Positions 4,901-57,459 of a DNA stretch of 64,000 bases are shown one piece after another. This DNA comes from Pogonophryne albipinna (Eukaryota; Chordata; Actinopteri; Perciformes; Artedidraconidae), in assembly GCA_028583405.1 (NCBI GenBank), contig JAPTMU010000032.1, positions 831,001 to 895,000 of the forward strand. The letters run 5' to 3'. Each line of letters opens with the position of its first letter. Position 1 is the stretch's first letter. Below the pieces are notes generated by a model. The model was not told the origin of the DNA. It saw nothing but the letters and a program-made list of their open reading frames with translations, and searched no databases. The position numbers and the translations under genes are program-made.

Positions 4901-6354
4901 TAGATCTACTTCATATAGTAAACAAATCTCTTCACTCAGGTATTTTTCCACAGGCCCTGAAAACTGCAGTCATTAAACCGCTCTTAAAAAAGAATAATCT
5001 AGATGCTTCAGTAATGAACAATTCTCCACAATAAAACAGGCCCATATCAAACCTCCCATTTCTAGGTAAAATCATTGAAAAAGTTGTTTTTCAACAGTTG
5101 AGTAACTTCTTGCATTTAAATAACTGTTTGGATGTGTTCCAGTCAGGCTTTCGTCCAAACCACAGCACTGAGACTGCTCTTGTAAAGGTCTTTAATGACA
5201 TCCACTTAAACACAGACAGTGGCAGAACTTAAGTGTTAGTATTATTAGCTCTCAGTGCTGCGTTTGACACTGTTGACCATAGCATATTACTAGACCGACT
5301 GGAAAACTGGGTGAGACTTTCGGAAACAGTTCTAAATTGGTTTGAATCCTACTTAAAGGACAGAAACAACTTTGTTTCTATAGGTAAATACACATCTGAG
5401 TTGACAAATATGACATGTGGGGTACCTCAAGGCTCCATCTTGGGGCCTCTTCTCTTTAACGTCTACATGCTACCACTGGCTCAGATAATGAAGAACAACA
5501 AAATAAGTTACCATAGCTATGCGGATGACACACAAATTTACGTAACAATTTCACCAGGAGACTATGCTCCAATTCAAACACTGAGAAAGTGCATTGAACA
5601 AATCAATGACTGGATGTGTCAGAACTTTCTCCAATTAAACAAAGATAAAACTGAGGTAATAGTTTTTGGAGCCAAGGCAGAATGTATAAAAGTTAGCGCT
5701 GAGCTTCAGTCTGCAATGTTCAAAACAACAGATAAAGCCAGAAATCTAGGTGTAGTCATGGACTCTGACCTGAGTTTCAACAGTGACATTAAAATAGTTA
5801 CTAAATCAGCCTACTATCACCTAAAGAATATATATAGGATTAAAAGACTAATGTCACAGCAGGATTTGGAAAAACTTGTCCATGCTTTTATCTTCAGTAG
5901 ACTCGACTACTGCAATGGTGTCTTCACAGATCTCACTATTAGAAAGCTGCAGCTGATTCAGAACGCCGCTGCTCGAGTCCTCACCAACACTAAGAAAGTG
6001 GATCACATCACTCCTGTTCTGAAGTCTTTACACTGGCTTCCTGTGTGTCAAAGAATAGATTTCAAAATACTGCTGCTGGTTTATAAAGCACTTAATGGTT
6101 TAGGCCCAAAATACATTTCTGACCTCCTGCTAAATTATGAACCATCCAGATCTCTCAGGTCTTCAGGGACTGGTCAGCTTTCTGTCCCCAGAGTCAGAAC
6201 TAAACATGGTAAAGCAGCGTTCAGTTATTATGCTCCAAATATCTGGAACAAACTCCCAGAAACCTGCAGGTCCGCTGCAACTCTTACTACTTTTAAATCC
6301 AGGCTGAAGACTTTCTTTTTGTCGCTGCTTTTAATTGAACTATTCATATCTTAG
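1950..6354 (+). pseudogene. LINE ORF2 (APE endonuclease + reverse transcriptase), disrupted
   Basis: Endonuclease pieces: FLTETW (2090-2108, catalytic Glu), VGDFNIHVD (about 3942-3968) and LSDHS (about 4127-4141). Reverse transcriptase pieces: SAAFDTVDH (5251-5280), GVPQGSILGPLLFN and YADDTQ (5518-5535), then the C-terminal HITPVLKSLHWLP block near 6006. Breaks: a frameshift near 2225-2250, where the other frame continues FASFEYVALQL; the transposon at 2377-3910; a stop at 4808; a stop near 5031 in the PISNLPFLGK block; and a stop at 5230 just before motif A. Motif A reads LALSAAFD where LDLSAAFD is expected, so the first catalytic Asp is Ala. The codon is GCT, one base from GAT. The product is certainly inactive. 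Confidence 0.88.
2377..3910. mobile_element. Composite hAT-like element, copy 1 (8-bp TSD GTGTGTAT)
   Basis: Termini TAGGGCTG...CAGCCCTA flank a 1534-bp element, bounded by a perfect 8-bp duplication GTGTGTAT at 2369-2376 and 3911-3918. That is the duplication length of hAT transposons. It encodes no transposase. The subterminal blocks are AC/GC-rich (GCACGGTAT and ATACCGCGG). The interior is a fold-back: the arm at about 2650-3075 is the reverse complement of about 3398-3811, with a loop of roughly 320 bp. At 2449-2465 the sequence TTAA-CCTGTTAAGCCCC matches the left end of the TTAA-target elements at 20097 and 33810, but the matching right end is missing. Copies 2 and 3 are at 31668-33198 and 47757-49303. 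Confidence 0.85.
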
Positions 6355-39903: not shown

Positions 39904-40745
39904 CAGCTACCTGCTTAATGGAAAGAGTAGAGCGTTGCTGCTACTCGCCGAACAGAAAGAGGGATGTAATTACACCCACGTTACCAGCAGAGGGAGCGGG
40001 AGCGAGAGCACTGCCTTCACCTGGCTGGATTAATAAACACGGCAGTTCAGCATAACCGGGAGCGGGTGCGGGAACACAGCCTTCACCGGCTACCTGCTTA
40101 ACGGAAAAACGAGGCAGTTTGGCGTCTACCAGGAGCGGGGGCGAGAACTGCCTTCACTGGTTGAGTTAGAGACGAATGCCAGATGCAGCGTAACCGGGAG
40201 CGGGTGCGGGAACACAGCCTTCACCGGCTACCTGCTTAACGGAAAAACGAGGCAGTTTGGCGTCTACCAGGAGGGGGGGCGGCGAGAACTGCCTTCACTG
40301 GTTGAGTTAGAGACGAACGCCAGATGCAGCGTAACCGGGAGCGGGTGCGGGAACACAGCCTTCACCGGCTACCTGCTTAACGGAAAAAACGAGGCAGTTC
40401 AGCGTCTACCAGGAGCGGGGGCGAGAACACTGCCTTCACTGGTTGAGTTAGAGACGAATGCCAGATGCAGCGTAACCGGGAGCGGGTGCGGGAACACAGC
40501 CTTCACCGGCTACCTGCTTAACGGAAAAGCGAGGCAGTTCAGCGTCTACCAGGATCGGGGGCGAGAACACTGCCTTCACTGGTTGAGTTAGAGACGAATG
40601 CCAGATGCAGCCTAACCGGGAGCGGGTGCGGGAACACAGCCTTCACCAGCTACCTGCTGAACGGGAAGAGTAGAGCGGTGCTATTACTCGCCGAACAGAA
40701 AAAGGGATGTAGCTACATCCGCATTACCGGTAGAGGGAGCGGGAG
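39870..40745. repeat. ~140-bp tandem repeat array in DIRS leader
   Basis: About five to six units of roughly 138-142 bp. Each starts near CGTAACCGGGAGCGGGTGCG and contains CACAGCCTTCACCGGCTACC and GCCTTCACTGGTTGAGTTAG. Outer units are more diverged (AGTAGAGCGTTGCTGCTACT variants). Related words reappear at 41600-42060, suggesting an older array. Confidence 0.88.
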
Positions 40746-40899
40746 CGAGAGCACTGCCTTCACCTAGCTGGGTTAAATAAAGAAGCTTAACAGTATACGC
40801 AAGACGATAGCTGAGTGGCTGCTGCTAACGATCAAGCGAGATCAAGTCAAATAACACACATGTTTAAGACCAGTTAACTAGCTTCTAAAGAAGAGAACA

Positions 40900-41420
40900 G
40901 CACAGAGCCGTAGTTACAGCAGTAACCATGGCCAGTGCTCACACGGCATATAACCGTAGTTACAGTAGTAACTCTGGCCAGTACTTGCACAGCTTGGAAC
41001 CGTAGTTACAGTAGTAACTATGGCCAGTACTTACATGGCTTAGAACCGTAGTTACAGTAGTAACTATGGCCAGTACTTAAACAGCATAGAGCCGTAGTTA
41101 CGGTATTGACTATGGCCAGTACTTGCACGGCTTGGAACCGTAGTTACAGTAGTAACTATGGCCAGTACTTACGGCTTAAAACCGTAGTTACAGTAGTATC
41201 TCTGGCCAGTACTTGCACGGCTTGGAACCGTAGTTACAGTAGTAACTATGGCCCGTAGTTACAGTAGTAACTATGGCCAGTACTTACACAGCATAGAGCC
41301 GTAGTTACGGTATTGGCTATGGCCTGTACTTACACGGCTTGGAACCGTAGTTACAGTAGTAATTATGGCCAGTACTTACGGCTTAGAACCTTAGTTACAG
41401 TAGTAACTGTGGCCGGTGCC
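40900..41420. repeat. ~45-bp tandem array (CCGTAGTTACAGTAGTAACT)
   Basis: About ten units of the type CCGTAGTTACAGTAGTAACT-ATGGCCAGTACTTACACGGC, each containing a short palindrome GTTAC-AGTA-GTAAC. The start of the unit resembles the DIRS terminal sequence GAACCGTAGTTACAG, so the array may derive from the element's own end. Confidence 0.88.
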
Positions 41421-46466: not shown

Positions 46467-47475
46467 TCAATACTTTGTTATATACCCTTTGTTGGCAATG
46501 ACAGAGGTCAAACGTTTTTTGTAAGTCTTCACAAGGTTTTCACACACTGTTGCTGGTATTTTGGCCCATTCCTCAATGCAGATCTCCTCTAGAGCAGTGA
46601 TGTTTTGGGGCTGTCGCTGGGCAACACGGACTTTCAACTCCCTCCAAAGACTTTATATGGGGTTGAGATCTGGAGACTGGCTAGGCCACTCCAGGACCTT
46701 GAAATGCTTCTTACGAAGCCACTCCTTCGTTGCCCGGGCGGTGTGTTTGGGATCATTGTCATGCTGAAAGACCCAGCCACGTTTCATCTTCAATGCCCTT
46801 GCTGATGGAAGGAGGTTGTCACTCAAAATCTCACGATACATGGCCCCATTCATTCTTTCCTTTACACGGATCAATCGTCCTGGTCCCTTTGCAGAAAAAC
46901 AGCCCCAAAGCATGATGTTTCCACCCCCATGTTTCACAGTAGGTATGGTGTTCTTTGGATGCAACTCAGCATTCTTTCTCCTCCAAACACGTCTAGTTGA
47001 GTTTTTACCAAAAAGTTCTATTTTGGTTTCATCTGACCATATGACATTCTCCCAATCATCTTCTGGATCATCTAAATGCTCTCTAGCAAACTTCAGACGG
47101 GCCTGGACATGTACTGGCTTAAGCAGGGGGACACGTCTGGTTCTGCAGGATTGGAGTCCCTGGCGGCGTAGTGTGTTACTGATGGTAGCCTTTGTTACTT
47201 TGGTCCCAGCTCTCTGCAGGTCATTGACTAGGTCCCCCCGTGTGGTTCTGGGATTTTTGCTCACCGTTCTTGTGATCATTTTGACCCCACGGGGTGAGAT
47301 CTTGCGTGGAGCCCCAGATCGAGGGAGATTATCAGTGGTCTTGTATGTCTTCCATTTTCTAATAATTGCTCCCACAGTTGATTTCTTCTTCTTATTGGAG
47401 ATTCAGTCTTCCCAGCCTGGTGCAGGTCTACAATGTTGTTCTGGTGTCCTTTGACAGCTCTTTGGTCTTGGCCAT
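46467..47475 (-). pseudogene. Tc1-like DD34E transposase, disabled
   Basis: Expected start ATG at 47475 (MAKTKELSKDTR) and expected stop at 46467 (ANKGYITKY) span about 340 codons, the family length. Two frameshifts and a stop break the N-terminal helix-turn-helix region; the main frame (47375-46653) is open from [10 protein letters not shown] to SPDLNPI. Catalytic residues: first Asp in WSDETK and second Asp in the HDNDPKHTA block are present. The third, Glu after DLNPI, is replaced by a TAA stop at 46655-46653 (one base from GAA). C-terminal sequence continues in frame after the stop. Function in life: cut-and-paste into TA sites. Confidence 0.93.
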
Positions 47476-49764: not shown

Positions 49765-49981
49765 CCGGCATAACATGGGACAGTAAAGTGGGAGGTGCTT
49801 ACACCTGTCTGTCTGAAGTGACTGCCGATGTCCGCACCGCTGTGCAGGAGACGTGGAGAGGGGGAGAGCTACGGAACTTCACAGTCTAATCTCCCGACCT
49901 GATATTTTAATTTTGTATTCAATCAATATATTTTGGGAAAGGGAAAATGTGCGCAAACAGCAGTAGATTCATTTATTCTAT
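49765..49981. other. Short spacer
   Basis: No recognisable feature between the 3-bp-duplication element and the ISL2EU-like element. Confidence 0.4.
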
Positions 49982-50269
49982 AGAGAACCGCAGTTTAGCG
50001 TCGTAAAACCCGGAAGTAAACTTCTTCCGGTTCCTTCGTGAAAAACCAATACAAATTCTCCATAGGATTTTGGAAAATAGCTCGAAATAAGGTCTGTGGT
50101 TGACACACATTTAAGAGAGGGAGCACGTTTTGTTCAGCCGGATAATCTCCACATGTCAACCCTTCTTTTATAATTTTTGAATCAGAAATCTTGTCGCCAG
50201 AAGCAAAATGCTAACGTTATGCTATAAACGAACTACAAGCTAGTACAGCAGCAGGGTCGCACGACTTCA

Positions 50270-50525
50270 ACGTCACGCCAACTTAAGATCGTTTCAACTG
50301 ACTTGCACTGAAACTGCACTTTGAACACTTTAAATATATTCTTAACATTTTAAACTGTATACCCCGTTTATCTAGGCCCTTTTTGTTTGTTTTATGTATA
50401 CCACGTTTATCTAGGCCCTTTTTGTTTGTTTTATGTATACATGTCACACTGTGGGAAACGATATTTCGATATTTCTGGATGTATAACACATGTAGAATTT
50501 TTGACAATAAAGCTGACTTTGACTT
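50270..50525 (+). repeat. Non-LTR tail fragment with 42-bp duplication
   Basis: Ends with TTTGACAATAAAGCTGACTT-TGAC, typical of fish LINE 3' ends. Within it a unit around CGTTTATCTAGGCCCTTTTT-GTTTGTTTTATGTATAC is tandemly duplicated (50360-50440). Confidence 0.6.
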
Positions 50526-50648
50526 TTGCGCGCTTGCATATTTTAACAAAGCTTTTCATTTGAGCCACACAGAATTTAACTAGAAGTCATGGCTGTGTCA
50601 ATTACCAGTCTGATATCGTTTTACAAAGATGACAAGAAGAGTGTAGAT

Positions 50649-53210
50649 CAGGGGCGTCGCCTGGACCTGGAAACATTCGGGGCTTAGCCCACAGTGGCGG
50701 CGCTACAGTCAAATTTTCTACTGCAAGACTCCCCACACCACATACACAATTGCGCCATCTGGTGTCACAAACGTGTGCCTGCATTAGCTTTGTTACGGCA
50801 ATGGATTGTGGGAGATTCTCATAGCACGTGAGGATCTCTTGACAAAATGTATGTTTTTATTTTATAAGGACAATAACGTACTGTTGTGTTTGTTGAGTTT
50901 AATGTTAATTGTTTAATGCTCACAGTCACAGCAACATGTTTTTTGTGTGAAAAACATGTTCTGAGTGATCTGTTGCCGAGGGGACACTACACCGGAGTTA
51001 CATAAGCAGAGATAAAGTGCTATTTTGAGGGAACTCACCTCCTCTGGGGTCCCCAGGAAGATTTTTTTTAAATGTTGAAGTTAAAAGCATCAATCTTGTG
51101 CACTTTGAGGGCAACATTAAGAGATATGGATACATCTCTCAACACCCATATGTCAAAAAAAATCAAAGAATCAGAATCAGAAATGGGTTTATTATTTAAA
51201 AACACTTTATTTTCCAATTAAATCATAAACTATGTCAAATTATTAGAAGTTGTTAGTAATCAGATTAAACAGAAAAAAGAGATATAATAATCCCTCCTCA
51301 CTTGCTGCTTCCCTCATCTCTTGCTGTTCCCCTCATCCCTTGCTGTTTCCCTCATCCCTTGCTGCTTCCCTCATCTCTTGCTGCTTCCCTCATCCCTTGC
51401 TGTTTCCCTCATCCCTTGCTGTTTCCCTCATCCCTTGCTGTTTCCCTCATCCCTTGCTGCTTCCCTCATCTCTTGCTGCTTCCCTCATCCCTTGCTGTTT
51501 CCCTCATCCCTTGCTGTTTCCCTCATCACTTGCTGTTTGCGGTTGAAATTATCTCTTTTGCTGGCCAAACATGCTGGATGGAAAGCAGTGGTGTCTCACT
51601 TGGCTTGGCCCTGTATCTGCAGTCCCTAAATCAGTCATGTTACCCATTGACTCTTGTCTGTTCTGGTGTTCCTGTTCATTGTTGTGTCCATTGTCGTTCT
51701 TGTCTGTTGTATCTCCTTCTTGTGTGTCCCTTGCTCCTGTTCTCCTTTCTTCATCCTCTACTCTGTTTGGCTCATCTGTGATGAATGTGTAGGTAAACAC
51801 AAACAAGTATGTAAGTCAATCAGTTTCCAGCTCTGTCAAATAAATGAATTTCAAGATACACAAATGTGTCTTCATTAAAATGAGTGTCACCACACTGTCA
51901 CAAAATGTAATACTAACCAATTGAAAATAGTTAAATGTACATTGGAAACCACTTGTAGATATCACTATTAAGAGTAGTTATCTGCCAATAGGACAGAATC
52001 ATTCCTATACAAATGCAGTTTGAGTAATTCACTTAATATATTCACTTAATACTCTAATATAGTCATCTTTCTGCATTCAAAACTAAGGAAAGCTGTACAA
52101 TTTGACATGATGATGAGGAAAAAAGGCCTCCGACAATGCAGATCATTTTTTGATCATATCAATTTTAAGATGGGGGTCAAGGCTTAATATTTGGGAGCAT
52201 AGTGTCCCTTGCGAGGAGCCCCACTCGATTAGCTTTGATCTGAAAGCTTGTTAGGTGGCTGTCCATCTCATAATGTACACATATAAACTAGCTGTCAATA
52301 GGAAATATCAATCAGAACAATTATAATTTCATGCAAAAATCTGTCACAAAAAGAGGTTGTACATTTAAATTCAGGTGTTGTTATGGCAACGTTAGTGGCC
52401 AAACAGCCACATTTACTGCTGCAAATACGTTCAAACATGACACGTAAAGCAGTGGCAACTATGCCACCATTTCAGCTGACTTTTCCTCAGAAATACCGTC
52501 ACATAACATCCATATATTTCAGTGCTAGGTTGATGCTTAGCTAAGCTAACTATGAAACACTTTAACTGACAGGACTCAGGATCAACTGTGTACTGTAAGG
52601 TAGCTTCTAGCTTCATGTCGAACACTGACAGTAAGTCAACATTTCCCAAAAAGCTTTCTTTGAAATCACCAGGTAACGCTAAAAAACACAACATTTAGAT
52701 TTTATGACAAAGTGTTTATTTAATATATCTGGCTAGCTATAGCTACTTGCTAACGGTTTAGCTTACCCCCGCGATTCAAAGTAACGTAAACGTAGCTATA
52801 ATTTATGCTTTGCTTACATGTTGACATAACTTGTACGTTTACTGACATTTACATACCTTGTTCACCTGGCTCAGGTGGTGGCTCTGGGGTTGTTGTGTGA
52901 GCCACCACTTGAGAATTGCCGTATTTTTTCTTCAGAAACTCTGCGTCCGCGGCTGAAAGTTTAAAGTATAAACACTGTCACAGAGGAGAGGTCAGCCAAT
53001 AAAACACGTTTATTTCCATGCAACTCTCTGATTGGTCTGGTGGTGTCTTGCCTCTGTTGCATTCACTGAACACGGGAAATTACAATTCTGCCATCCTCTA
53101 GGTAAAGTACGGTTAATGTATTATATTATTGAGGGAGAATTTGTCCGAGGCTAATGAAAAAACATCGGGGGCTAAAGCCCCGGATGCCTACCCCTACCCC
53201 GACGCCCATG
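50649..53210 (-). mobile_element. CAGGGGCG-terminus hAT-like element (8-bp TSD GTGTAGAT)
   Basis: CAGGGGCGTCG at the left and CGACGCCCATG at the right are mirror ends; the 8-bp duplication GTGTAGAT at 50641-50648 and 53211-53218 is perfect and lies in a codon-aligned position of the host gene's exon 1. Read on the minus strand the right half holds a possible exon (AADAEFLKKKYGNSQVV, donor GTATGT near 52855), paralleled at 20700-20790. Another open stretch, 51806-51549, is Asp/Glu/Asn-rich. No complete transposase was recognised. Relatives are at 20457, 57580, 58992 and 63455. Confidence 0.78.
51297..51540 (+). repeat. 19-bp minisatellite (CCCTCATCCCTTGCTGTTT)
   Basis: About 12-13 tandem units of 19 bp with C/T variants (CTTGCTGCTT/CTTGCTGTTT, ATCCC/ATCTC). 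It is stop-poor in several frames, which explains the apparent Pro/Ser/Leu/Cys-rich open frames, none of which is a gene. Confidence 0.92.
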
Positions 53211-53427
53211 GTGTAGATAGAGAAGAGAACCACTACAAGTCAGGACACGTAAAACAGTGCAGCCTAGATGAAGGTGTGCTTACCGGTGTTGTCAGGGCTA
53301 GCATGAGGGACAAGGTTTATAGTGTCGGTGAGTAGTGATAGCAAGAGTACCGTTAACCTAGAGTTAATTTATTCACATTGATTCCCATCAACAAATCCAT
53401 TTTATGTGTCACATGAAATCTTTATTA

Positions 53428-54509
53428 GGCAAGGCAAGTTTATTGATATAGCACAATTCAAAGTGCTTTACAAAAAATGAAAGACATTAAGAAAATGGCA
53501 TTTAAAATCAGTCATTAAAAAGAAAAGCTAATAAAATAAACATTAAAAGAAAAAATACATGGATAAAAGTTACAGTGCAGTTTAAGATATGAATAGTTCA
53601 ATTAAAAGTAGCGGCAAAAAGAAAAGTCTTCTTGCTGGATTTCAAAGTAGTAAGAGTTGCAGCGGACCTGCAGGTTTCTGGGAGTTTGTTCCAGATATTT
53701 GGAGCATAATAACTGAACGCTGCTTCTCCATGTTTAGTTCTGACTCTGGGGACAGAAAGCTGACCAGTCCCTGAAGACCTGAGAGATCTGGATGGTTCAT
53801 AATTTAGCAGTAGGTCAGAAATGTATTTTGGGCCTAAACCATTCAGTGCTTTATAAACCAGCAGCAGTATTTTGAAATCTATTCTTTGACACACAGGAAG
53901 CCAGTCTAAAGACTTCAGAACAGGAGTGATGTGATCCACTTTCTTAGTGTTAGTGAGGACTCGAGCAGCAGCGTTCTGAATTAGCTGCAGCTTTCTAATA
54001 TATTTTTTAGTGAGACCTGTGAAGACACCATTGCAGTAGTCCAGTCTACTGAAGATAAAAGCATGGACAAGTTTTTCCAAATCCTGCTGTGACATTAGTC
54101 TTTTAATCCTAGATATATTCTTTAGGTGATAGTAGGCTGATTTAGTAACTGTTTTAATGTGACTGTTGAAACTCAGGTCAGAGTCCATGACTACACCTAG
54201 ATTTCTGGCTTTATCTGTTGTTTTGAACATTGCAGACTGAAGCTCAGCGCTAACTTTTATACGTTCTGCCTTGGCTCCAAAAATCATTACCTCAGTTTTA
54301 TCTTTGTTTAATTGGAGAAAGTTCTGACACATCCAGTCATTGATTTGTTCAATGCACTTACTCAGTGTTTGAATTGGAGCATAGTCTCCTGGTGAAATGG
54401 TTACGTACATTTGTGTGTCATCTGCATAGCTATGGTAACTTATTTAGTTGTTCTTCATTATCTGAGCCAGTGGTAGCATGTAGACGTTAAAGAGAAGAGG
54501 CTCCAAGAT
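53428..54509 (-). mobile_element. 5'-truncated L2-type LINE, same family as 1-6523
   Basis: On the minus strand this runs from a GSILGPLL-type block (54509) to the tail AAACTTGCCTTGCC (53428). It closely matches 5435-6523. It sits in the intron of the ISL2EU nuclease gene. Confidence 0.92.
53598..54470 (-). pseudogene. L2 reverse transcriptase C-terminal fragment
   Basis: After a stop codon just before the HSYADDTQ motif, 270 codons are open (54410-53598): MYVTISPGDYAPIQTL, FLQLNKDKTEV, ARNLGVVMDSDLSF, HAFIFSRLDYCNGVF and HITPVLKSLDWLPVCQRIDF. Differences from the 5.2-6.4 kb copy are few. It has GLTKKYIRKLQ where the other copy lacks two residues (DLTIRKLQ). It lacks motif A and the endonuclease. 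Confidence 0.9.
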
Positions 54510-55495
54510 TACAAATATTACACACCAGAAAACACAGAAATATCCATGAAATAAACATACAGTAGGCTATAAACAATTAAAGGGATAATTGGGAAGGCAT
54601 TACAAATGTAAATATATTTTAAATAATTAAACAATCCACCACCACAGGTATCTACAGGAGAAGAGGGAATTCTCTCCACAAAATGTGAATGCCCATGTGG
54701 AGAATGGAAATGCAGTCATGCGGCTGCATTAGCCATCTTTGCCATCCACAATTTCAGCTGCACTGACACCCCCTGTCAGTGGAAGAAGCCAAAGGCAGCT
54801 AAACGTACGCATTCAGTGGAGGAGCTATTTCCTCCAACCAATAAGTCATTCAACCCGCTGACAAGAGAGCCCACCTCCGAAGATCGTGACTGGCTGAGGG
54901 ACAGACTCGGGGGCAGGTTCTCAGGAATGTCTTGGCTTCTCTCCCCCGAGCCAGAAGAGGAACACTACAGCTTGGAAACACATTGTCTGAGGAGCAACAG
55001 AGGGCAATTCAGGTGGCTACTACTGGTCAACAAACCAACCCAAACTGGCATTTGTTCAGGAAAGGAAGGTTGACTGCCAGCAACTTTGGAGCTGTCCTGA
55101 GGTCAAAGCGTGTGACTGCTTCCCTTATTGCCAGGGTGCTAGGGCAACAACAGGCCCTTGATGGTGTTTTGTCTGTACAGTGGGGGACTATGAATGAATG
55201 TGAGGGCGTCAGGGCATTCACCACTGCAACCCAGATGCAGGTCCATGAGTCATGTTTGTGGCTCTCCCAATCAGGATTGTTGGGGGCATCTCCAGATGGT
55301 CTGGTAGGGTCTTCCGCTGTGCTGGAGGTAAAGTGTCCCTACGGAGCCAGGGAAATGACAATTAGTGAAGCATTGCAAATCAAGGGCTTCTGTGTCAGTA
55401 AGGAAGGAGAAACATTCAGCCTGCGTGAGGAGCATCCTTACTGGCACCAAGTGCAAGGTCAGCTTCACCTCACTGCAAGAAAGAAGAAGAAATAA

Positions 55496-56273
55496 AAAAA
55501 TTGTGAATCGTTTTTAATTTACATTTACTCGCCTTTGCAATGTTGTGGTTGTTAGAGTGTCAGCTCATCTGTTGGGAAGATATAAAATATTAGTTTCATG
55601 GAAGTCACACCGTCACATATAAGAGCATTAAGACATACAGTACATAGGCTAAAACAAAAACATCTAAAGATATAACCTTGCACTTTGTCTCGTGAACATT
55701 TTCACTATTTTGACATTTTTATAGATGAAAATTGAACTAAAGAAATAAATGGTAGATTAATCCATATTGAATATAGGTGTCAGCTGCTACACTAATTATA
55801 ATAGTTATATTTCTTAATTAATTAAGATAAGATATTACTGTATTGATCCCAATTTGGGAAATGTTTGTGTTGCAGCAGCATAACAAGAAAAACTAAATAT
55901 AAGTTATTATATATACAAAAGTATGTGAGGGACGGAATATTAAATTGAATATAAATGTAAAATGTACATGTGATTTGACGTCCAAGAGAAGCTATGGAGC
56001 AGAGAGTTCTCTGCCAGCCAGAGGTGATTTGTTATTAGTTCAATATGTCAAACTGATTTCCCTGACTACAATCTTTAGTCACATGGTGAAACGTTATGCT
56101 GCTTGTACTAATTAGACTTATCACATAAGCCACACAGGTTTTAATAGGATGTATTCATTATCTTTACTTATGTTGCGGTCTTTTCAGCAGTGCCATCTCT
56201 TAAACTGCGATACAGTCACTACCCATCATTTACATTTCACCGTGACATGGACAAAAATGTAACGTCAGCTTAC
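55496..56273. other. ISL2EU interior without recognised coding sequence
   Basis: AT-rich. Contains the fragment CCCAATTTGGGAAATGTTTG-TGTTGCAGCAGCATAA (55850-55990), a repeat shared with 36190. The remaining transposase exons expected downstream of the THAP exon on the minus strand were not found here. Confidence 0.5.
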
Positions 56274-56386
56274 CTCATAGCACGAATCCAGACTCTCCTT
56301 TGGAAAACATTGGCCGGGAAACGATAGAACGAGCACGTTTCATGCGAAGACCTGTGGCTGCAACCCGGAGCAAAGCAACAAACCAT
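56274..56386 (-). pseudogene. THAP-domain first exon (ISL2EU transposase start)
   Basis: On the minus strand ATG at 56386 opens 37 codons plus two bases ending at a GTAAGC donor: MVCCFAPGCSHRSSHE, then FYRFPAN and RRVWIRAMR. The spacing C-x4-C with the following F-x-FP and R-x-x-W pattern is that of a THAP zinc finger N-terminal half. THAP fingers bind terminal repeats in several animal transposases. The exon is 550 bp inside the right end and transcribed inward, facing the YqaJ gene. No continuing exon was found, so only this exon survives. Confidence 0.68.
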
Positions 56387-57459
56387 TGCGTAGCTAACTA
56401 GTAGCGCTAGCTTTAGCTAACGTTAGCTAACGAAACGAACTGCAGAGTAAAATTGGAAAACACCGGTAATTAATTATTCTATAATTTGTAAAACTACGGT
56501 GTTAAAAACGACAATTTCAAAAATACAGATTCTAATGGTCAGATATAGATATACAGATACTAAAGATAGGCAGGTACTTGCTTTCAAGCAGAACACAGGG
56601 GAAAACAAACTTAGCGGGAGTGTTTACGTGTTCGGCGTAATGACGTACAACGGCCTCGACAATTTCTGTAGTCCTATTCAGCCACTCGGTAACAACCATC
56701 GTTTTTCAGACACGTAAACTCTTCAAAAATCACCAGTGGGGTCACTGCTGATGTATTTAATGTCATAGAACAAAACGTGATTTATCTCTTAAATTTGTGT
56801 CAACCACAGACCTTATTTCGAGCTATTTTCCAAAACCCTATGGAGAAAATGCATTGCTTTTTGACGAAGGAACCGGAAGTGCTAAAAATGCTAACTTACT
56901 TCCGGGTTTTACGACGCGTCACTGCGGTTCTCTATTGCCGTGTTTTTTAGTGTTATGAATGTGTTTGTATTTTTTGCACACCGGGACAGAGTTGCATCTG
57001 AACCTCGTTATACTCTGTGTATAATGACAATAAAAGGCTTTAACTTTATAAAAAAAAAATAAAAAGGGGGAAAAAGGGCACTTTCTCTGGAGGAAGAAAA
57101 AGGGCAGGGGCTCAAGCCCACTTTGATGTCTATGTGTGCACGTGCCTGCTCTCATCTATAGAGTGGCGAAGTCCCTCCCCTTCCGTTGGACCTCCATGGG
57201 ACCTTATTTCGGAAAAATGATGTATTGAAGTCAATGGCGAGAGAAAAGTTATCTTTCGATCCTGTTTGAATTGTGCCACGAATTACACATATGATGTTTG
57301 TCAATTTAAAAGATAATTTTGCAAGTAAAACTTTGAAGTAACACTTTTTTGTGTGAAACCGCTCAATGAACTACATCTCTGGTCTCGCACAACAACACAC
57401 GTCACCAAGATGGCCGTCACTACTGTCTTGCCAAACTATCACTATCACCACAATGAAAC

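Follow-up and report, generated by a model that had tools for sequence, protein, structure and literature searches.

In a 64-kb stretch of contig JAPTMU010000032.1 (64,000 nucleotides, hereafter the window), the segment 49982-56933 is best read as a degraded, non-autonomous DNA transposon of the ISL2EU group (PHIS superfamily) in a notothenioid-like fish, a reading to which we assign a probability of about 0.9. The element spans 6,952 bp, including a 2,562-bp insertion and a fragment of a long interspersed nuclear element (LINE). Its two ends are inverted repeats, and between them lie pieces of two opposed genes, one for a SWIM-YqaJ nuclease and one for a THAP-type transposase; the truncation of the nuclease recurs in another notothenioid, and in a relative the THAP half is linked to a DDE domain. 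This copy is dead: exon 1 is split, a LINE lies in the intron, the reading frame is shifted, the nuclease lacks its C-terminus, and the transposase is almost entirely gone. An earlier note on this DNA had proposed an ISL2EU-like identity with genes on opposite strands, which agrees with the tie between the THAP half and DDE_Tnp_4 in the relative, but had also described the nuclease gene as retained, whereas an insertion interrupts it, its frame is shifted and its end is missing.

The DDE transposase of the ISL2EU family moves the element by cut-and-paste. In the accessible parts of two papers, Han et al. 2015 and a survey of Harbinger-like elements in teleosts, ISL2EU members of the PHIS superfamily are described with a THAP/HTH/DDE transposase, a YqaJ exonuclease, AT duplications and teleost representatives (PMC4482050, PMC9179366). 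The family in the window resembles these elements in its two-gene design, AT ends, long inverted repeats and presence in teleosts, whereas the copy itself differs in having no DDE domain, in termini that begin with AG instead of GG, the common form, and in carrying nested insertions. The pairing of nuclease and transposase, which had been thought little explored in fish, is thus already in print, teleosts included, and the window element is an additional, degraded member. As far as the available part of the teleost survey goes, the nuclease is named an exonuclease, proof of activity had not been reported for ISL2EU transposons, and these transposons are reported to be expressed in fish (PMC9179366). 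ISL2EU was not found in the notothenioid transposable-element literature among the matches listed, and the copy offers a readable example of ISL2EU decay in notothenioid-type fish.

Terminal repeats

The terminal arms aligned over 154 nt on the left and 166 nt on the right, with two 6-nt gaps and a local score of 213. Random segment pairs taken from the window as a control scored 69 at most (495 pairs, left from 500 after 5 were dropped as too close). This supports the inverted ends of about 150 bp reported earlier, and the arm lengths lie within the 6-259 bp given for ISL2EU in the parts of PMC4482050 and PMC9179366 that were available. A 32-base terminal pattern with 3 free positions, searched with up to 3 mismatches, occurred twice in the window versus 0 times in 100 shuffles, and apart from the two ends this search revealed no other terminal-repeat copy in the 64 kb. 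Between the left end and exon 1, a 39-bp unit is present in two near-identical direct copies (50356-50433).

The broken nuclease gene

Exons 1 and 2 (53327 / 54658) join in phase through a GT..AG intron, the phase being taken from the coordinates, and lead into the SWIM finger CECPCGEWKCSH. The earlier description of exons joined in phase therefore stands for this pair; it does not extend to the SWIM stretch and the YqaJ domain, which lie in different frames (54658-54980 versus 54983-55495). Aligned with a protein of Gymnodraco acuticeps (P0002, LOC117538673), the stretch between SWIM and YqaJ is shortened and its frame changed. The reported order of a SWIM finger followed by GASPDG and LEVK motifs was confirmed, Pfam giving E 2.2e-14 for YqaJ and, when part of exon 1 was included, E 0.00099 for SWIM (19.0 bits, just under the cut-off of 19.6; E 0.0022 without that part). 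An exonuclease gene is thus present between the ends, as in ISL2EU, though broken by insertion, frameshift and truncation.

The window nuclease stops at ARKKKK, while full-length relatives run about 50 residues further; the catalytic D, ExK and QxQ (in GASPDG, LEVK and QVQ) all lie upstream of this point. These residues fit the lambda-exonuclease (YqaJ) type, and the fold itself was supported by a test run on a relative, P0004, instead of on the window protein. Ahead of residue 166 the fold comparison was thinly covered by rows, so that the absence of other folds there is uninformative. Among the closest known systems are lambda exonuclease and LHK-Exo (PDB 1avq, 3sm4, 3syy). Enzymes of this type are characterized by 5'-3' exonuclease activity and a ring-shaped trimer, and 5'-3' exonuclease action is predicted for the SWIM-YqaJ protein from its fold and motifs.

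Transposase remnant

At the opposite end, the inward-facing THAP-like first exon of the earlier note was recovered at 56386-56274 on the minus strand (Pfam THAP, E 1.5e-05, covering the first 38 of 87 profile positions). Only this first THAP half of the THAP/HTH/DDE transposase is kept in the window, and DDE_Tnp_4 is known from two proteins of Pseudochaenichthys georgianus, P0122 and P0123, the latter also with HTH_Tnp_4. No DDE domain was found in the window by tblastn with five transposase-type relatives (P0122, P0123, P0126, P0136 and P0186) at E up to 0.01; P0123 matched nowhere and the other four only at the THAP half-exon.

A candidate remnant of THAP exon 2, behind a possible acceptor CCCAACAG, was matched by eye to RAD...TLTTTTLQR of Gymnodraco P0121; it is four residues shorter and is interrupted by an in-frame stop, whereas P0121 retains the four residues without a stop. 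GCTGAC occurs both behind the donor of THAP exon 1 (56260-56275) and behind the acceptor-like CAG (55559-55568). Because tblastn placed the RAD of P0121 at the GCTGAC behind the exon 1 donor, the detail of this remnant is uncertain, and the double occurrence may be accidental or stem from a small duplication in the region of the intron.

Relatives in other notothenioids

We searched the nuclease pieces against 5.8 billion proteins and obtained 808 matches, the best from fish. The search with the THAP half-exon, confined to proteins of suitable length, scored only two candidates, both of which matched: P0121 of Gymnodraco acuticeps (100%) and P0122 of Pseudochaenichthys georgianus (91%). In P0122 the THAP half is joined to DDE_Tnp_4 (E 7.3e-47), which speaks against an origin of the exon in an unrelated host gene. 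P0123, of the same species, opens with MRRADRKPN and carries both HTH_Tnp_4 and DDE_Tnp_4.

The arrangement in the window recurs in Gymnodraco gene models. In P0121 (LOC117559081) the THAP half is joined to a stretch that reads the YqaJ exon in antisense (98%, 88 aa), opposed as in the window; this fusion indicates that the Gymnodraco genome appears to have the same compact, opposed copy. P0002, representative of 6 database sequences, terminates at the same ARKKKK, and its frame is open where the window copy has a frameshifting deletion. These matches suggest that one internal deletion is common to several notothenioid copies, and their near-identity points to a notothenioid host.

An open frame of this kind could also mean that a deletion derivative has been selected to keep a working truncated SWIM-YqaJ protein, made by some copies and acting alone or modulating the transposon. 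The open frame of P0002, which represents six sequences, across the stretch that is frameshifted in the window, and the position of the catalytic D, ExK and QxQ ahead of the truncation are in its favor. However, judged from the model of a full-length relative, the truncated protein would be without two strands and the final helix of the fold (about residues 359-405), the window copy has both a frameshift and an interrupted exon, and the P0002 gene model begins past the SWIM finger. We therefore consider selection for such a protein very improbable, and degradation of a non-autonomous ISL2EU copy the better account.

A SWIM finger typical of transposon nucleases

Counts for the nuclease were made on the best 120 of the 808 matches and those for the transposase on the best 120 of 1,011; query A1 took in 16 and query A2 46 of the 120 listed nuclease matches. 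SPDG, ExK and QxQ were present together in 97 of the 120 nuclease matches, and ExK and QxQ in 92 of the 97 that reach at least 90 residues past SPDG. An N-terminal SWIM finger (pattern C-x-C-x6-C-x-H) was found in 68 of 73 transposon nucleases long enough to hold it (235 residues ahead of SPDG), as opposed to 0 of 40 viral relatives. The THAP pattern appeared in 14 of the 120 transposase matches and in 12 of the 18 with at least 440 aa; the remaining six of these 18 have only the second THAP half, with odd first residues ahead of it.

The viral relatives came from query A2, which matched at least 600 stretches of viral contigs, at least 503 of them encoding a YqaJ relative; 80 loci were kept, with 27-35% identity, and the first 40 of these were checked for SWIM. 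A search of viral contigs with one fish protein gave no confirmed relative, nor did a search of genome contigs with query A1.

The literature search, with Repbase entries and subscription papers outside its coverage, yielded no mention of SWIM linked with YqaJ or ISL2EU. The papers it did bring up appeared unrelated, among them one on mycoplasmas of cattle, one on Deinococcus and one in which 'swim' belongs to the name of a virus, and the accessible part of a paper on PHIS elements (PMC12730594) names neither YqaJ nor SWIM. Judged by sequence pattern, the near-constant N-terminal SWIM finger of the ISL2EU nuclease is the one fresh and little-described point here, and the window copy draws attention to it and to its lack in the viral relatives checked.

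Pairing of nuclease and transposase in other animals

Contig sizes of the listed nuclease and transposase matches coincided exactly in eight cases (119 nuclease against 120 transposase matches, P0084 being excluded as it has no contig). As a control, sizes were shifted by 1 to 10 in both directions; the 20 shifts gave eight coincidences in total, four of them at one shift, the control being limited to nuclease contigs of at least 2,000 bases, a size that all eight real coincidences exceed. Two of the eight pairs carry locus names, LOC116286787 / LOC116286789 in Actinia and LOC135685036 / LOC135685039 in Rhopilema; their nucleases have YqaJ and SWIM and their partners THAP, HTH_Tnp_4 and DDE_Tnp_4. 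In two other pairs that were scanned, P0051/P0156 and P0070/P0158, the nuclease has YqaJ without a Pfam SWIM match and the partner HTH and DDE without a THAP match. Regarding where the YqaJ gene lies in relatives, which the earlier note had raised, nuclease and transposase apparently share contigs in other animals.

The nuclease gene and the THAP exon might instead be independent host or viral genes that came to lie between two repeats by chance. THAP domains are also found in host genes, and viral contigs often encode exonucleases of the YqaJ type, as the counts above illustrate. Nevertheless, the THAP half is fused to DDE_Tnp_4 in the Pseudochaenichthys gene model, Gymnodraco shows the opposed genes and the truncation as well, every nuclease match bearing an organism name is animal among the matches listed, eight listed nuclease matches sit on a contig equal in size to that of a listed DDE-type match, and the viral relatives are distant and, in the 40 checked, lack SWIM. 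On these grounds we rejected both the host-gene and the viral-gene origin, and regard a chance assembly as highly improbable compared with an ISL2EU transposon.

Several points weigh against the ISL2EU assignment itself. With no DDE domain left in the copy, the placement leans on relatives, and the Gymnodraco and Pseudochaenichthys evidence consists of database gene models instead of genomic DNA; the first approximately 60 residues of P0122 look unrelated, which suggests that part of its gene model may be in error. The shared contigs in other animals are deduced from equal sizes and locus numbers. AT stands at both ends of the element, but a duplication is unprovable from a single copy, since AT is its own reverse complement and could be part of the repeat. 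The outer bases read T/AT/T, with T before the left AT, versus the published A/AT/T, and the termini start with AG where those of ISL2EU usually begin with GG, according to the available parts of PMC4482050 and PMC9179366. As GG is published only as usual and not as obligatory, we did not take the AG termini to exclude ISL2EU.

A proposed history of the element

In the proposed autonomous parent, two genes ran towards each other between long inverted repeats: a THAP-HTH-DDE transposase, read on the minus strand from the right-hand side, and a SWIM-YqaJ exonuclease, read on the plus strand from the left-hand side. A deletion inside the element, which copies in Gymnodraco acuticeps apparently share, would then have removed the C-terminal part of the nuclease and most of the transposase while sparing both ends. 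Because such copies keep both ends without a transposase, they would be mobile only with one supplied from elsewhere, and we infer mobilization of the deletion derivatives in trans. The window copy is further disrupted by a hAT-like insertion in its first exon, by a LINE fragment in the intron and by a frameshift.

In an intact parent, the DDE transposase would make its cuts at the element ends; the protein with the lambda-exonuclease fold, anchored to DNA or to partners through its SWIM finger, might resect the 5' strands at the donor break. Resection of this kind could favor repair by copying, with internal deletions as a possible aborted product; we offer this only tentatively, as our preferred guess from fold and motifs. 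The role suggested in the earlier note, processing of ends or of recombination intermediates, is likewise a conjecture from fold and motifs. More speculative still, and in our judgment doubtful, is that SWIM is a fixed, transposon-specific addition that recruits a phage-type 5'-3' exonuclease to the donor break, where it would resect the DNA and shift repair towards copying, so that copies would be gained with internal-deletion derivatives as a by-product. If true, a SWIM-bearing nuclease would let a cut-and-paste element gain copies. The apparent intact pairs offer a way to test what use a cut-and-paste element has for an exonuclease of the resection type.

Nested insertions

The insertion at 50649-53210 is younger than the ISL2EU element and not part of it. 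Its flanking 8-bp duplication GTGTAGAT (second copy at 53211-53218) and its termini CAGGGGCGTCG and CGACGCCCATG, which we take to be of the hAT type from their end motif, suggest a hAT element. Local alignment of its 100-base ends gave only an 18-base subterminal match, and no hAT Pfam model matched the single open reading frame of the insert that was scanned (51549-51815, minus). The insert also holds a 19-bp minisatellite of about 13 copies (51291-51538).

The LINE fragment in the intron (53598-54443) is 93% identical over 277 aa to a LINE open reading frame at 5233-6354, indicating one family with two copies in the window.

Table 1. Coordinates of the features of the ISL2EU-like element in the window.
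Feature	Position	Strand	Remark
AT beside left end, candidate target-site duplication	49980-49981		
Left terminal inverted repeat	49982-50135	+	154 nt aligned
SWIM-YqaJ exon 1, part ahead of nested insertion	50589-50648	+	starts MAVSITSLISFY, resembles N-termini of relatives
8-bp duplication, left copy	50641-50648		GTGTAGAT
Nested hAT-like element inside exon 1	50649-53210		2,562 bp; termini CAGGGGCGTCG / CGACGCCCATG
SWIM-YqaJ exon 1, rest past nested insertion	53211-53327	+	GTGAGT donor at end
SWIM-YqaJ intron	53328-54657	+	enlarged by LINE fragment
LINE reverse-transcriptase fragment in intron	53598-54443	-	
SWIM-YqaJ exon 2	54658-54980	+	SWIM finger CECPCGEWKCSH and linker up to frameshifting deletion
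YqaJ nuclease domain, shifted frame	54983-55495	+	GASPDG, LEVK, QVQ; early end ARKKKK and stop
Internal-deletion junction, truncated nuclease / transposase remnant	55484-55558		approximate, estimated from protein matches
Candidate remnant of THAP exon 2 and sequence behind	55532-55568	-	possible acceptor CCCAACAG ending at 55569
Transposase THAP exon 1, first half of THAP domain	56274-56386	-	GTAAGC donor follows
Right terminal inverted repeat	56768-56933	-	166 nt aligned
AT beside right end	56934-56935		

Other features of the window

A remnant of a Tc1/mariner-type transposase lies at 46653-47402 on the minus strand (Pfam HTH_Tnp_Tc3_2 and DDE_3). At 136-1740, a 534-aa open frame precedes LINE endonuclease and reverse-transcriptase frames; its matches to OSK and GDSL-lipase models are weak and under the cut-offs, and it is perhaps an esterase-type first open reading frame of a LINE. 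Large tandem arrays with 141-bp and 46-bp units occupy 39993-41414.

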